Below are positions 12,485 through 28,181 of a DNA stretch of 64,000 bases, in pieces (position 1 is the stretch's first letter; each line of letters begins with the position of its first letter). The translations under genes were made by a program, and so were the position numbers. The notes under the pieces were generated by a model. That model did not search any database, was not told the DNA's origin, and saw only the letters and a list, made by a program, of their open reading frames with translations. The DNA comes from Pseudomonas leptonychotis (GTDB lineage: Bacteria; Pseudomonadota; Gammaproteobacteria; Pseudomonadales; Pseudomonadaceae): the NCBI RefSeq assembly GCF_004920405.1, contig NZ_RFLV01000001.1:1612001-1676000 (forward strand). The letters are read 5' to 3'.

Positions 12485-12566
12485 GCGCTTTCCTCAAACC
12501 GTCATCGTCGCGCCGCCCGACCAGTTGGCTGTCGTACCCGCGCGCAAAGCGGGCATAATAGCGCCT

Positions 12567-12873
12567 TCGTCGGTGCCCTAATGGGCCGAAGAACCTGTTT
12601 ACGATCTCGCGAGCTAGAGCCATGCAAGGCAAAAATAGGCGAGGAAGTGGAGTTTACGAGCTGTAAATGAGCATTCCGAGCCTGTTTTTAACGCAGTAGG
12701 GCCGACGCGCAGCAGATCGTAAACAGGTTCTAAGAGGGAATCAGGAGCGATCTGCTGATCGTGACCGAGCTGCCCCCGCAACTGTAAACAGCGAGTTTGC
12801 CGCAACTGTGCCACTGGGTAACCGGGAAGGCCGCAGCAGATGAAGACCTGTAAGCCAGGAGACCTGCCGACGA
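12567..12873 (+). promoter_or_regulatory. Cobalamin (B12) riboswitch upstream of cobG, interrupted by a palindromic repeat
   Basis: The core from 12731 shows the conserved B12 elements in order: AGAGGGAATC, GCCCCCGCAACTGTAAACAG, GCCACTGGGTAACCGGGAAG and GCCAGGAGACCTGCC (12854-12868). The 5' part lies before a 140-bp repeat: TCGTCGG (12567-12573) pairs perfectly with CCGACGA (12867-12873), as the P1 helix should, and GGTGCCCTAATGGGCC gives a P2-like hairpin. The repeat thus sits inside the aptamer. It would repress cobGHIJ when adenosylcobalamin is abundant; how the insertion affects binding is unknown. Confidence 0.9.
12591..12730 (+). repeat. 140-bp MITE-like palindromic repeat, copy A, inside the cobG riboswitch
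   Basis: The unit is bounded by perfect 17-bp terminal inverted repeats GAACCTGTTTACGATCT (12591-12607) and AGATCGTAAACAGGTTC (12714-12730). The interior includes GGAGTTTACGAGCTGTAAAT. It codes for no transposase. Closely related units lie at 28025-28163 (in the second B12 riboswitch) and 21480-21619 (in the chlD-like gene). No clear target-site duplication is visible for this copy. It reads in the same orientation relative to its riboswitch as copy C. Confidence 0.85.
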
Positions 12874-12985
12874 CGCTAGTCGCGAGTGCCAACATCGGGC
12901 GGGGTGTACCGATGCCATTGAGTCCCCTGTGCCAGGGCGGGCTCTGCTGGTTCGGTCGCCGCGTCTTTGTTGTTGGTGACCTTTT

Positions 12986-14329
12986 TTGCGCGACCATTCC
13001 ATCACCGTCGATCCATCACTACCACGCCCCAGCGCGTGCCCCGGCCTGCTGCGCATTGTGCAAGCACTGGACGGTGGCATCTGCCGGGTCAAGCTGGCTG
13101 GCGGTGTACTCAGCAGCAACCAAGCCCGCGCCATCGCCGAGGCCGCCGAACACTGCGCCAGCGGTGTGCTGGAGCTGACCAACCGCAGCAATCTGCAGAT
13201 TCGTGGCGTATTAGCTGGTCAGCAGGCCGAGCTGATTGAGCGCCTGCTCGCCGCCAACCTGGGCCCAAGTAACCCGACGGCTGATGATGTGCGCAACCTG
13301 CTGCTCAGCCCCGCCGCCGGTCTCGACCCGCAGGCGCTGCTCGACACCCGACCGTTAGCCGCCGCGTTGCTTGAACTGCTGCAAAGCACCCCGGCACTGC
13401 ACGGGCTATCGGCCAAATTCGCCATTCAGTTGGATGGCGGCGAAGCCCTGGCGATGCTCGAACACCCGCACGATATCTGGCTTAGCGCTCTGCCCGGCAT
13501 GCCGGCACGGCTGGCCTTTGGCCTGGCTGGCTGCCCAGGTGATCAGCCACTGGGCGTGGTCGACGCAGAGCAAACCGTGTCGCTGGTAGAGCAGCTGCTA
13601 AGGCTGTTTATCGAACTGGCCGGCAACGCACACAGCCGTATGCGCCAGCTGCTAAGCGTGATTCCAGCCAGCCAGCTGCTGCAACAGCTGCAAACGCGCC
13701 TGCCCTTTGCCGTGCAAGCGCCGCCGGCCGATTGGCAACGCACACCGGTCAGCCCACGCGCGCCGATCGGCATTTATCCCCAGCAGCAAGCGGACCTGCG
13801 CATGGTCGCCGCTGGCGCGCGCCTGGGACGGATCGACGCCGCGCAATTGCAGGCCCTGGCCGATCTGGCTGAACAACATGGCGATGCCAGTCTGCGCCTG
13901 ACGCCCTGGCAGGGTGTGTTGCTGCCAAATATCCCCGAACACTCGACGGACACACTGCTGCACAAGCTGAACGACCTCGGCTTGCTCACCGATGCGCAAG
14001 AACCGTTAAGCCAGCTGATCGCCTGCACCGGCTCCGCCGCCTGCGCTAAAGGCTTGAGCGACAGCAAGGCCGATGCCCTGCGCCTTTCCGCACGGCTGCG
14101 CGCCAGCAGCGTCCGCCCTCAGGTGCATTTAAGCGCCTGCCCGCGCTCCTGCGCCGCTGCGCACACCGCGCCCTTTACCTTGCTGGCCAGCAGCGCTGGC
14201 CACTACCAACTCTATCAACGCACGCCGCAGGCAGCCGGTTTCGGCCAACTGCTGGCCAGCGCCATTACGATCGACGAGGCCGGCGACTGGTTCGCCGCCC
14301 ACTGCGCAACAGGAAATAGCGATGCTTGA
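12986..14329 (+). CDS. cobG: Precorrin-3B synthase
   Basis: A 447-residue protein related to sulfite and nitrite reductases. Ferredoxin-like half-domains are followed by the iron-sulfur/siroheme-type ligand set CTGSAAC (C-x5-C) and CPRSC (C-x3-C) near residues 350-390. CobG uses oxygen to hydroxylate precorrin-3A and form the lactone, so its presence marks the aerobic B12 pathway. The start is a TTG at 12986; an in-frame TGA at 12977 leaves no earlier choice, and a weak GGTGA lies upstream. It is the first gene after the riboswitch and overlaps cobH by 8 bp. Confidence 0.92.
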   Translation: MRDHSITVDPSLPRPSACPGLLRIVQALDGGICRVKLAGGVLSSNQARAIAEAAEHCASGVLELTNRSNLQIRGVLAGQQAELIERLLAANLGPSNPTADDVRNLLLSPAAGLDPQALLDTRPLAAALLELLQSTPALHGLSAKFAIQLDGGEALAMLEHPHDIWLSALPGMPARLAFGLAGCPGDQPLGVVDAEQTVSLVEQLLRLFIELAGNAHSRMRQLLSVIPASQLLQQLQTRLPFAVQAPPADWQRTPVSPRAPIGIYPQQQADLRMVAAGARLGRIDAAQLQALADLAEQHGDASLRLTPWQGVLLPNIPEHSTDTLLHKLNDLGLLTDAQEPLSQLIACTGSAACAKGLSDSKADALRLSARLRASSVRPQVHLSACPRSCAAAHTAPFTLLASSAGHYQLYQRTPQAAGFGQLLASAITIDEAGDWFAAHCATGNSDA

Positions 14330-20158: not shown

Positions 20159-20917
20159 TCACACTTTCCTCAGCAGGTAGCTGTCCATAATCCACCCATG
20201 CTGCTCGCGCAGCTCTGCACGACAGGTGCGGATGGTGTCGGCGACTTCACTAAGCGGGCCGGCGATTAGCACTTCGTCCGGGGTGCCGATATAAGCGCCC
20301 CAGTAGATGTGCATGGGCTGGCCGACAAAACGCTGGTAGGTGTCCTGGGCGTCGAGCATCACCAGCACGCTGTCCACGCCCTCGGGAAAGCCGCCTTCGG
20401 CCAGACGCCGTGCCGGGGTGATCTGGAAGGCCTGACCGATGCTGTTAAAGCAGACCTTATGCTTGGCTGCCAGAGCTTGCAGGCTGGTGATGCCGGGGAT
20501 GACTTCGTACTCGATCTGCTCGCTGCTGTTGGCCACAATCTGCTCGACGATGCGCAGGGTGCTGTCGTACAGCGCCGGGTCGCCCCAGACCAGAAAAGCC
20601 CCGGTTTCACCGTCGCTCATCTGCTCGCGGATCATGCCTTCGAACACCTGCTGCTTGTCCTGATTGAGATCAACCACGCTGCCGTGATAGTCGGGCACAT
20701 CGCGCACCCGCTCCGGGCACTCGGCGCTGGCAAAACGATAGTCGCGGCCGTTAATAAAGCGCTCGCAGATGGTCTTGCGCAGGCCGATCAGGCTGTCCTT
20801 GGCGCTGCCTTTGTCCATCAGGAAGAACACGTCCGTGCGGTTCAGCGCGTTGATCGCCTGCACGGTCAGGTAGTCCGGGTCGCCGGCACCGATGCCGATT
20901 ATCAGAAGGGTTTTCAT
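20159..20917 (-). CDS. cobF: Precorrin-6A synthase (deacetylating)
   Basis: A 252-residue tetrapyrrole methylase starting MKTLLIIGIGAGDPDYLTVQ, with FLVWGDPALYDSTLRIVEQI and YEVIPGITSLQALAAKHKVC. CobF methylates C1 and removes the acetyl group, another step specific to the aerobic pathway. It overlaps the upstream VWA (chlD-like) stop by 4 bp, placing it in the cobN-chlI-chlD-cobF transcript. Length is normal. Confidence 0.94.
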   Translation of the reverse strand: MKTLLIIGIGAGDPDYLTVQAINALNRTDVFFLMDKGSAKDSLIGLRKTICERFINGRDYRFASAECPERVRDVPDYHGSVVDLNQDKQQVFEGMIREQMSDGETGAFLVWGDPALYDSTLRIVEQIVANSSEQIEYEVIPGITSLQALAAKHKVCFNSIGQAFQITPARRLAEGGFPEGVDSVLVMLDAQDTYQRFVGQPMHIYWGAYIGTPDEVLIAGPLSEVADTIRTCRAELREQHGWIMDSYLLRKV

Positions 20918-21753
20918 GGGGTTGTCTCCAGGCTGCCGGCCAGTACCGGCAGCGAATCAATATGTCGGTAGTCTGCGCCTAACTCCGCCGCCAGTTGTCG
21001 GGCGCGGCCGAGGCGGATCGGGGCGCTTTCGATATCCACCAGCAGCGCCGGGCAGGCGCTTGGCGCTAACGCCGGCCAGTCGCGCAGACGGCCGTCGGTG
21101 ATGATCAACAACCGCTGAGTTTCGCCCGGGTGTAAGCGCTGACGCCGCGCCTGCCAGTCGGCCGCTTGTTGCAGCGCATCAAACAACGGTGTGCCGCCGC
21201 CTGCGCCCAATTCGGCGAGCCATTGTTGCAAGGCTGCGGAGGCTTTCTGCCCTTGCCACAACCACTGCGCCTGGCGGCCAGTGGCGTGCAGCAAAGCCAA
21301 GCGCGCACGTTGCCGGCGAGCCTGCTCGAACACTTCACTGAGCAAACCCTTGGCTTTGCTCAGCGCGCCATGGCGGCGAGTCGAGGCCGAGGCATCGACA
21401 ATTACCAGCCAAAGTTCAGCCGGCTTGGCGCTGCGCGGACGCAACACGAGATCCAGACGATTGCGCGGGCAACCTTTAAGGCCACCTCTAAAAACTACCT
21501 GCGTTGTCATCGCAGCGTTAAAAACAGGCTCAAAATGCTCATTTACAGCTCGTAAACTCCGCTTTTTCGCCTGCTTTTGCCTTGCGCTGACTTCCTCGCC
21601 TACGTATTTAAAAGCGGCCTTAAGCAAGCTCGCCGGCCAGTCGATACGGCCCGTCGCACCACTGCGATTGGCACCGTTACGACCATTGCCGAATTTGCCG
21701 GGAGCGGCCCTGGCATCCGCGCCTGGGGCTGTGCGCGGGCGGATGCCTAGGGC
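20914..21753 (-). CDS. chlD: ChlD-like VWA segment of the cobalt chelatase, -1 frame continuation of chlI, with in-frame repeat insertion
   Basis: This frame has no normal start. It is open from a TGA at 21775, and its first plausible start codon is a TTG at 21627. It is in the -1 frame relative to chlI, so I treat it as the part reached by frameshifting at 21753-21759: 279 codons, fused product about 616 residues. A basic, glycine-rich linker (APGKFGNGRNGANRSGATGR) is followed by a VWA domain with MIDAS elements DASAS, GGGTP and TDGR. Between linker and VWA, 48 codons (KAAFKYVGEEVSARQKQAKK onwards) derive from a MITE-like repeat. It would act with ChlI and CobN in ATP-driven cobalt insertion. 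Confidence 0.82.
   Translation of the reverse strand, partial: ALGIRPRTAPGADARAAPGKFGNGRNGANRSGATGRIDWPASLLKAAFKYVGEEVSARQKQAKKRSLRAVNEHFEPVFNAAMTTQVVFRGGLKGCPRNRLDLVLRPRSAKPAELWLVIVDASASTRRHGALSKAKGLLSEVFEQARRQRARLALLHATGRQAQWLWQGQKASAALQQWLAELGAGGGTPLFDALQQAADWQARRQRLHPGETQRLLIITDGRLRDWPALAPSACPALLVDIESAPIRLGRARQLAAELGADYRHIDSLPVLAGSLETTP
21480..21619 (-). repeat. 140-bp MITE-like repeat, copy B, inserted in frame in the chlD-like gene
   Basis: The interior (CGGAGTTTACGAGCTGTAAA and flanks) is closely similar to the repeats at 12591-12730 and 28025-28163, but the ends differ: imperfect inverted repeats GGCC-RCYTYTAAA. TTAA flanks both sides (21476-21479 and 21620-21623), consistent with a 4-bp target duplication. 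140 + 4 = 144 bp equals 48 codons, so the reading frame is preserved. Confidence 0.82.
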
Positions 21754-26670: not shown

Positions 26671-27723
26671 TCAGGCCAATGCCGCTTGTAGCTCGGCTTC
26701 AATTGTCGCCTGATCAAGCTGCTGACCGATCACGATCAAGCGGCTGACCCGCGCCTCATCGGCCTGCCAGGCGCGGTCGAAGTGTTTGTCGAAACGCTGA
26801 CCAACGCCTTGCAGCAACAGGCGCATCGGCTTGCCGGGAATCGCCGCGAAACCCTTGATACGCAGAATGCCGTGCTTGGCCACTGCATCCTTCAAGGCGC
26901 TCAGTAAGCGTGCTTCCTCGGCTTGCGGTAGTTCCACCTGGAACGAGTCGAATTCGTCATGATCGTGGTCTTCATGGCCTTCCAGGTCATGGTGGGTTTT
27001 ACGCGCATCGATGTGCAGTTCGGTTTCGCAGTTCAGGCCCAGCAACACATCCAGCGGCAGTTCGCCGCCATGGGCTTCGATGATTTTCACCGCAGGTGGC
27101 AGTTCCTCGGCCACTTCGGCACGCACTGCAGCCAGCGCCGCAGCGTCGAGCAAGTCGGCTTTATTGAGGATCACCAGGTCGGCGCTGGCCAGTTGGTCGG
27201 CGAACAGCTCGTGCAGCGGCGATTCGTGGTCCAGATTCGGGTCGAGCTTGCGCTGCTGGTCGACCTGATCAGGGAAGGCGGCGAAGGTGCCGGCGGCCAC
27301 GGCTGGGCTGTCGACCACAGTGATCACCGCATCGACGGTGCAGGCGTTGCGGATTTCCGGCCAGTTGAAAGCCTGCACCAGAGGCTTGGGCAGAGCCAGG
27401 CCGGAGGTCTCAATGAGGATGTGGTCCAGCTCGCCACGGCGCGCCACCAGTTCGCGCATCACCGGAAAGAATTCTTCCTGCACTGTGCAACACAGGCAGC
27501 CGTTGGCCAGTTCGAAGATCCGCCCATTGGCCTCTTCTTCGCTGCAACCGATGGAGCACTGCTTGAGGATTTCGCCGTCGATGCCCAGCTCGCCGAATTC
27601 ATTGACGATCACCGCAATGCGCCGCCCGTCAGCGTGGCCAAGCATATGGCGGAGCAAGGTGGTTTTACCGGCGCCGAGAAAGCCGGTAACGATGGTGACG
27701 GGAAGTTTGCCGAGGGTTTTCAT
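26671..27723 (-). CDS. cobW: CobW, metal-binding GTPase of the COG0523 family
   Basis: A 350-residue G3E GTPase starting MKTLGKLPVTIVTGFLGAGK, with Walker A GFLGAGKTT, the metal-binding motif GCLCC (ANGCLCCTVQEEF), the LNKADLLD guanine-recognition box and an acidic His-rich stretch GHEDHDHDEFD. CobW proteins load cobalt for the chelatase. The ATG at 27723 is preceded by AGGAC; a longer frame to 27813 runs into the riboswitch leader and is not used. It is the first gene of the cobW-cobN-chlI-chlD-cobF unit and lies downstream of a B12 riboswitch. Confidence 0.94.
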   Translation of the reverse strand: MKTLGKLPVTIVTGFLGAGKTTLLRHMLGHADGRRIAVIVNEFGELGIDGEILKQCSIGCSEEEANGRIFELANGCLCCTVQEEFFPVMRELVARRGELDHILIETSGLALPKPLVQAFNWPEIRNACTVDAVITVVDSPAVAAGTFAAFPDQVDQQRKLDPNLDHESPLHELFADQLASADLVILNKADLLDAAALAAVRAEVAEELPPAVKIIEAHGGELPLDVLLGLNCETELHIDARKTHHDLEGHEDHDHDEFDSFQVELPQAEEARLLSALKDAVAKHGILRIKGFAAIPGKPMRLLLQGVGQRFDKHFDRAWQADEARVSRLIVIGQQLDQATIEAELQAALA

Positions 27724-27837
27724 GGCGAGTCCTGCATAGCGTCGAAAGAAAGACGAGCAGGAGGCGGCACAGACATGACAGCCACAGGGCGTCAGCCAAC
27801 ACCACCGGATCACCCCGCCCGGTTGTCGAAAACGTGA

Positions 27838-28181
27838 CGAGGCAGGTCTCCTGGCTCACGACCGGGCTGGCGTAGAGTCGCCGGCTATCCCTTCGCCTTC
27901 CCGCGTTGACGCAGTGGCTGTTGTGCTGCAGCGCTTGAGCGGCAGAACAACACAAGGGAACGAGTCGTTTACAGTTGCGGGGGCAGCCAAGGCATCAACC
28001 TTGTTCCCTCTTAGCTCCGGCTAAGAACCTATCCAAAATCTGCTGCGCGTCAGCCCTGCGGCGTTGGAAAGAGGCTCGGAATGCTCATTTACAACAGTAA
28101 ACTCCGCTTCCTCGCTTCTTTCCGCCTTGCATGGCTCTAGCTCGCTAGATTGTGAACAGGCTCTTCCCACGAAGAACCTCG
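27838..28181 (-). promoter_or_regulatory. Cobalamin riboswitch upstream of cobW, interrupted by a palindromic repeat
   Basis: On the minus strand the core shows AAGAGGGAACAAGG, GCTGCCCCCGCAACTGTAAA, AGCCACTGCG, CGGGAAGGCG and GAGCCAGGAGACCTGCC. The last base stretch CCTCG (27838-27842) pairs with CGAGG (28181-28177), giving a short P1 across a 139-bp repeat at 28025-28163. GGTTCTTCGTGGGAA after CGAGG could form the P2-like hairpin. It should repress the cobW-cobN-chl-cobF transcript when cobalamin is high. The 5' part is less certain than in the cobG riboswitch. Confidence 0.88.
28025..28163 (-). repeat. MITE-like palindromic repeat, copy C, inside the cobW riboswitch
   Basis: The repeat shares with copy A the series AGCTAGAGCCATGCAAGGC, CGAGGAAG, GAGTTTAC, GTAAATGAGCATTCCGAGCC and GCGCAGCAGAT when read on the riboswitch strand. 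Ends are degenerate (GAGCCTGTTCACAATCT and AGATTTTGGATAGGTTC). It occupies the same place in the riboswitch and has the same orientation as copy A. It contains no gene. Confidence 0.82.

Follow-up and report, generated by a model that had tools for sequence, protein, structure and literature searches.

The window analyzed here, a 64,000-nucleotide stretch of the Pseudomonas leptonychotis genome, carries two cobalamin riboswitches, each of which precedes a B12-type gene (cobG-type and cobW domains). An Rfam scan of the window gave an RF00174 match in the leader of the cobG-like gene at 12689-12885 (+), with 85.3 bits (gathering score, 31.5). The initial 42 nt of this match are the sequence of a repetitive element, on which the model draws P1 and P2 with several mispairs, and the true 5' part of the riboswitch is 12567-12586. 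Thus, a repeat that splits an aptamer can cause covariance models to misplace P1 and P2; the Rfam 5' boundary is off by ~120 nt here. The features of the cobG locus are as follows.

12554 to 12559, plus strand: putative -10-like promoter hexamer CATAAT, found by eye directly before P1
12567 to 12574, plus strand: P1 5' strand UCGUCGGU, pairing 8/8 with 12866-12873
12575 to 12586, plus strand: P2 hairpin GCCC-UAAU-GGGC, from the fold and the P2 of orthologues
12588 to 12590, plus strand: left copy of the target duplication, now GAA and TAA in empty sites, from orthologue comparison and a flank survey
12591 to 12730, plus strand: MITE-like element of 140 bp with 17-bp terminal inverted repeats GAACCTGTTTACGATCT, from inverted-repeat, BLAST, and flank evidence
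12701 to 12707, plus strand: GCCGACG within the element, a 7-mer that also makes up most of the P1 3' strand; possible transient decoy, from folding
12731 to 12733, plus strand: right copy of the target duplication, TAA, part of the conserved UAAGAGGGAA, from sequence, orthologues, and the flank survey
12734 to 12873, plus strand: remaining aptamer, including AGGGAA, L5 (12774-12779), AGCCAGGAGACC, and the P1 3' strand, from the RF00174 match and a custom model, R1 (137.4 bits)
12893 to 12914, plus strand: P13-like hairpin CATCGG-GCGGGGTGTA-CCGATG, similar in orthologues
12986 to 14329, plus strand: cobG-like gene (precorrin-3B synthase type) under the riboswitch, with PF03460 and PF01077 and a plasmid homologue annotated cobG

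P1 joins UCGUCGGU to its 3' strand GCCGACGA (12866-12873) across the insert. The same helix is the RNAalifold consensus of 21 uninterrupted cobG riboswitches, among which two pairs show one pair-keeping double change each and one pair is broken in one sequence. A preliminary description of this DNA had placed P1 at 12567-12573/12867-12873; the helix was right, and its length is 8 bp rather than 7. The P2-like hairpin proposed there (GCCC, 12575-12578; GGGC, 12583-12586) is also the P2 of orthologues, and its placement of the element inside the aptamer, between P2 and AGGGAA, agrees with the uninterrupted orthologues and with P1 closing around the insert. Farther downstream, the loop of the P13-like hairpin, GCGGGG (12899-12904), is complementary to L5, CCCCGC (12774-12779), a predicted kissing loop that follows the L5-L13 scheme of cobalamin riboswitches outlined in the available part of PMC10907184. 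The GGGCATAATA motif is present in 41 of 44 cobG loci, just upstream of P1 wherever displayed. The nearest named proteins to the window CobG are 86 to 87% identical and include those of P. guineae and Pseudomonas sp. HMWF032.

Two further observations concern the sequence around the junction. Closely related empty orthologues have a longer P2 loop than the UAAU (12579-12582) seen here, which is similar to the right flank of element copies located in P2 loops elsewhere (site A below) and may be a scar left by a previous insertion that was then lost. Separately, the right end of the element (12705-12719) is 87% complementary to a P4-like arm (12748-12762), possibly a competing pairing or an older remnant.

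The terminal inverted repeats of the element are perfect over 18 nt (12590-12607/12714-12731), and its bounds were set at 12591-12730 because of the symmetric ends and the target duplication, in agreement with the 140-bp element and perfect repeats first described. With up to 3 mismatches allowed, the window contains the 17-nt end 3 times (at each end of the first copy and at one end of a second), against 0.06 expected. BLAST returned 46 pieces in the genome itself; since some of these belong together, we estimate ~40 genomic copies. Among the 38 genomes examined, 19 had element matches (P. leptonychotis and 18 of 37 relatives). We then surveyed the flanks of 65 full-length copies with distinct flanks from the loci gathered, some of which are orthologous sites. 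Identical 3-bp flanks were found at 26 of the 65, all of them TNA (TTA, 13; TAA, 8; TCA, 5), and identical 4-bp flanks at none; the base before the element is C in 40 copies and the base after it is G in 52. These statistics indicate a target of approximately CTNAG with a TNA duplication. At the cobG riboswitch the duplication reads GAA/TAA, with one base changed (left TAA to GAA). The repeat had been called mobile in type, which the dispersed BLAST pieces and the TNA duplications corroborate: it is short, has inverted ends, contains no transposase gene, and combines dispersed copies with a target duplication, as does a miniature inverted-repeat transposable element (MITE).

A search for PF13340 in 15 genomes gave 6 matches in 3 of them, and one for PF01609 in 12 genomes gave 25 matches in 8; no facing pair of element ends lay at these loci, and no autonomous transposase with such ends was found at the PF13340 and PF01609 loci of the genomes searched. 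A loose scan of other loci returned 10 pairs of ends 500 to 2,600 bp apart, one of which (at L033; L and G numbers are our handles for loci and genomes) is a remnant plus a separate copy. In a plasmid search, the element had partial matches in 14 records, none covering 80%. Within the window, a 71-nt element fragment with 90% identity (21515-21585, minus strand) lies inside the N-terminal part of a VWA-domain open reading frame (20914-21627, minus strand), where the element letters are read as NEHFEPVFNAA.

The preliminary description had suggested looking in relatives for an uninterrupted version. We found 44 cobG loci and scanned 18 with Rfam; 15 of the 18 proved uninterrupted, with the order P1-P2-UAAGAGGGAA, and scored 96.4 to 119.1 bits against RF00174. 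With the element in place, the corresponding scores are 89.3 bits in P. guineae (L098), 83.5 bits in CC6-YY-74 (L108), and 85.3 bits in the window. The model R1, for which the 21 empty cobG riboswitches served as the training set, gave 137.4 bits on the window at 12701-12878, with no alignment across the element, compared with 150.9 bits on L108, 149.6 bits on L098, and 143.3 (L115), 153.2 (L122), 191.0, and 191.9 bits on training sequences. The orphan P1-P2 piece (12566-12609) scored 9.6 bits with R1, second best in a 701-base stretch.

In P. boanensis (L128), a different repeat lies in another peripheral arm, and the riboswitch scores 87.3 bits against RF00174. That repeat is a short palindrome with TGTGTGAAAACGTCG-like ends, located ~35 to 90 nt past the start of the core; a longer one with similar ends lies upstream of the riboswitch. 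A second repeat family has perhaps entered this riboswitch as well.

One could read the 140 bp as an ordinary, large peripheral domain of a riboswitch subclass, with no insertion at all. Cobalamin riboswitches do have peripheral domains (PMC10907184, available part), and RF00174 fits the right end of the element as P1/P2. Nevertheless, dozens of copies lie away from riboswitches, and 40 loci that we scanned lack any Rfam match; the TNA duplication also speaks against this reading, and the empty orthologues refute it, so that we give it practically no chance. The locus holds a real, well-bounded MITE insertion within a riboswitch aptamer.

A nonautonomous palindromic MITE inserted at the CTAAG of the conserved CCUAAGAGGGAA and duplicated TAA, so that the 3' copy left UAAGAGGGAA whole. 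In the RNA, the inverted ends are predicted to pair, and the element would leave the P2/P3 junction as a separate arm; P1, P2, the P3-P6 core, and L5-L13 can therefore still form. B12 control of cobG is probably kept, and we infer that sensing is retained.

Folding predictions are in line with the suggestion, made at the outset, that the palindrome folds away as an extra arm. For a 323-nt RNA, the minimum free energy (MFE) was -130.0 kcal/mol, against -61.9 for the joined core plus -66.2 for the element, and the MFE structure held 8/8 pairs of P1 and 18/18 pairs of the element ends. The probability of P1 in this RNA, which has 12 more 3' bases than a transcript ending at P1, was 0.42, and of two joined element-free versions that we folded, one (12588-12730 removed; -62.1) lacked the native P1 in its MFE structure; single-strand folding is thus a weak judge here. 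In the transcript ending at P1, the P1 probability was 0.91 with the element and 0.905 without it, and 0.908 to 0.910 with six other genomic copies in its place. Across 60 shuffled inserts the probability averaged 0.70, and across 50 coding 142-mers 0.75. It reached at least 0.5 in 44/60 and 43/50 of these, respectively; in the longer RNA, 29 of 100 shuffled inserts kept P1 in the MFE structure. In most of the folding runs, P1 and the core come out the same with the element in place; it behaves as a fold-neutral insert, as random sequences frequently do as well.

Alternatively, the insertion may have disabled or decoupled the riboswitch, such that cobG is no longer B12 regulated and the aptamer is decaying. 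Both the RF00174 and the R1 scores are below those of most orthologues, and the GCCGACG of the element is predicted to pair with the P1 5' strand during transcription, at 0.85 to 0.87 for 3' ends at 12708-12716. This pairing falls to zero from 12720 on; the decoy would be let go once the element ends begin closing, which makes it a candidate folding delay. The lower scores can be explained by the distant P1/P2, the core letters being kept. Moreover, P1, the P13-like loop, and the conserved letters of the core have all been preserved, and for each of the P2-loop, P2/P3-junction, P4-loop, and 3'-arm sites described below, riboswitches with an element at the same place occur in at least two genomes. 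We therefore regard loss of function as quite unlikely and retain the reading of an arm that folds out of a core still able to form.

Going beyond the preliminary description, we found a copy of the element in the second riboswitch of the window and recurrent insertions across relatives. The features of the cobW locus are as follows.

26671 to 27723, minus strand: cobW gene, with PF02492 and PF07683 (26674-27738); ATG start by eye, in a reading frame that opens at GTG 27813
27824 to 28181, minus strand: second cobalamin riboswitch, upstream of cobW, from an RF00174 match of 82.6 bits (27824-28047), sequence, and the empty orthologue L208
28025 to 28163, minus strand: second element copy, lying within the P2 loop of this riboswitch; it shares 84% identity with the first copy, and L194 has a copy in the same place

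By eye, P1 of the cobW riboswitch pairs CGAGGU (28181-28176) with GCCUCG (27843-27838), and P2 pairs CUUCG (28174-28170) with CGGAG (28019-28015).

To obtain a census, the window and the gathered loci were searched with regular expressions, which yielded 183 distinct aptamer core sequences. In this sample, tilted to element-rich genomes (18 of 24 same-genus relatives entered the riboswitch search, 16 of them chosen for element matches, and the six left out had none), 14 of the 183 aptamers hold the element. Genome G391 was added after being flagged by a DNA search of 398 genomes, while named genomes entered via cobG and not via the element. Since the census requires an intact core, insertions that destroyed riboswitches are missed. 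The 14 cases fall at four structural sites, and a fifth site lies just 3' of P1, as follows.

Site A, P2 loop: cobG riboswitches of L098 and L108; cobW riboswitches of the window and L194
Site B, P2/P3 junction at TAA: cobG riboswitch of the window, L201 (G391), and L206 (G008)
Site C, loop of the hairpin that follows AGGGAA (P4 in our mapping): P. argentinensis (L111), P. punonensis (L112, whose core is shared by L113 and L219), and PA27 (L114)
Site D, 3' peripheral arm: L073/L214, L215, L216, and L217
Site E, just 3' of P1: full copies in L156 and L163

Remnants were found at three of these sites. At site C, PA15 (L139) has a 30-nt hairpin made of the element ends only where its sister PA27 has 143 nt; at site D, L033 has 42 nt where L216 has 140; and at site E, a hairpin of 16 nt, again end-only, takes the place of the full copy in P. 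peli (L164) and HMWF032 (L165). L033 belongs to the P. leptonychotis genome itself, before a cobO-like open reading frame named by eye, and of the five cobalamin riboswitches in this genome two thus have the element and a third the 42-nt remnant. The remnants of 30, 42, and 16 nt fold at -15.0, -14.9, and -12.0 kcal/mol, respectively (the third including TAA flanks), better than all 200 shuffles of each (z, -6.7, -4.1, and -5.0). Internal deletion may thus shrink the element to a short hairpin of its ends.

A quick tree of 46 CobG proteins, with six riboswitch states in which the remnant and P. boanensis were counted apart, requires at least nine changes of state. The G391 protein (L259; site B) is sister to that of the uninterrupted L122 with full support, while the G008 protein (L260; site B) sits on a long branch in an unsure place. 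From the sites and the tree we infer at least six separate aptamer insertions (A twice, B twice, C, and D). The same element family has entered cobalamin riboswitches repeatedly, in peripheral loops or junctions wherever the site is visible, and the cobG insertion is one instance of a recurring process. In the 398 genomes, the junction pattern matched twice (P. leptonychotis and G393), a count that is not a frequency because the pattern is strict and missed G008 and G391; the DNA search likewise scored two candidates per genome and gives no frequency. As a rough gauge of chance, if 12% of the genome is taken as intergenic and 40 copies are distributed uniformly over that space, five 200-nt aptamers would receive 0.076 copies, with probabilities of 0.003 for at least two and 7e-5 for at least three; this is a crude assumption, and the case itself was selected because such a copy is present.

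Several neighboring arrangements deserve mention. In L101, L105, and L293 (G417:C91:50208-50348), a copy of the element follows the P13-like hairpin of the cobG leader, and its flanks are nearly identical between P. peli and G417; this is a further leader insertion, outside the aptamer. L212 (G416), of the riboswitch type of L033, has an insert of ~100 nt of other sequence between conserved halves. Divergent cobalamin riboswitches stand in back-to-back pairs ~100 nt apart at L040, L153, L155, L162, and L158 (e.g., G001:C4:284718-285181).

We also asked whether the element seeks out such RNAs. Scanning up to 1.5 kb on each side of 40 other element loci (28 from the same genome and 12 of 29 from relatives, with L073 excluded for its position in a riboswitch) gave no Rfam match, and the element is therefore not generally aimed at structured RNA. 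Target preference was rejected as the cause of the recurrence: CTNAG is not enriched in aptamers, with 91 occurrences against 108 expected. GGGAA was found in 178 riboswitches, and in 58 of them the motif immediately precedes it.

Another possibility is recruitment, in which selection maintains the arm and the arm adjusts ligand affinity, the kinetics of folding, or the stability of the mRNA. We compared the identity of the element copy with that of flank windows in eight pairs of riboswitches sharing a copy. Three pairs exceeded every window (G008/G391, 97.1% versus 75.9 to 94.8; L214/L215, 100 versus 93.0 to 98.3; L216/L217, 100 versus 94.0 to 98.3), and the cobW riboswitch copy and its L194 counterpart (96.4%) exceeded four of five (80.3 to 91.7; the fifth was 97.0 with 78 gap letters). 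In addition, the G008 and G391 copies are 97.1% identical while their CobG proteins share 58%, and no other copy of at least 100 nt in these genomes exceeds 86% identity to the G008 copy. On the other hand, four of the eight pairs lay within the flank range (L098/L108, 88.2; L112/L113, 95.5; L111/L113, 98.7; L112/L114, 91.6), and short G008 pieces reach 93%. Shared copies outside riboswitches behave alike: identities were 97.9% for L008/L296 (flanks, 84 to 85), 92.9 for L295/L304 (86 to 87), and 93.1 for L313/L298 (80 to 85). This control took 30 of 46 matches from P. leptonychotis, 15 (plus L194) of 42 from G417, 15 of 47 from G411, 10 of 23 from G008, and 10 of 42 from G391; four genome comparisons gave 7 pairs, of which two are riboswitch pairs (cobW/L194 and G008/G391), one (L001/L293) is not the same site, and four are others, including L299/L318 with only 44 aligned bases. 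L008 has no Rfam match, and the G417 members of the other three pairs lie outside the four RF00174 matches of that genome. Because nonriboswitch copies also exceed their flanks, we do not claim riboswitch-specific selection, and recruitment appears unlikely. The G391 and G008 copies have the same base and orientation in surrounding DNA that differs by about a quarter; their likeness could reflect recent transfer, two insertions of one subtype, or constraint.

Altogether, the likely explanation is insertion of a MITE whose arm folds out and leaves a core able to form, with recurrent entry into such riboswitches and decay to hairpins. Palindromic MITEs are best read as being tolerated as fold-out arms in peripheral loops, where they can decay into ordinary-looking helices. 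We give somewhat less than even credence to the broader proposal that palindromic elements are a recurring source of these helices, in which case part of the variable stems in cobalamin riboswitches would be fossil MITEs, and some of them might tune the switch. Under this proposal, elements would enter permissive aptamer loops as self-folding arms, be inherited across species, and shrink to helices that no longer look mobile. Full, empty, and remnant versions coexist among related species, so that the idea of aptamer helices arising from mobile elements can be tested directly.

Among known systems, the cobG riboswitch of the window resembles RF00174 members in its core, P1, and L5-L13 complementarity and differs from them by a 140-nt mobile insert at the P2/P3 junction. 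Members of the IS1031 group of the IS5 family duplicate a 3-bp TNA target. The element shares this duplication, while no transposase with its ends was found at the PF13340 and PF01609 loci searched. MITEPsy1 of Pseudomonas syringae, probably derived from an IS5-family element, is likewise a small Pseudomonas MITE with 18-nt ends; it differs in its length of 100 nt, its ends GGAAGGTCTGAAAAAGCC, its 4-nt target CTAG/YTAA, and the absence of a riboswitch link in the available part of the source (PMC3189936). Identity with MITEPsy1 was rejected on account of the different ends and the 3-nt TNA found here versus the 4-nt target. That insertion into an aptamer is little described, as first supposed, fits the open-licence literature, in which we found no paper joining a cobalamin riboswitch to a miniature inverted-repeat transposable element; PMC4465626, in its available part, reports riboswitches and no insertion in them. 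In the pneumococcal trp operon, a BOX element lies between two T-box riboswitches (PMC3049150, available part); as is probable here, a mobile repeat is cotranscribed in a riboswitch leader with apparently working switches, but it stands between two T boxes rather than inside an aptamer, in a Gram-positive organism and at one locus. The palindromic RPE elements of Rickettsia, which lie within the genes for tmRNA and RNase P RNA (Ogata 2002, as described in the available part of PMC2229807), similarly show a palindromic repeat tolerated in a structured RNA, the host there being a ribozyme or tmRNA and not a ligand-sensing RNA. As far as these sources and the open-licence literature extend, BOX and RPE are the nearest known cases to the insertions described here.
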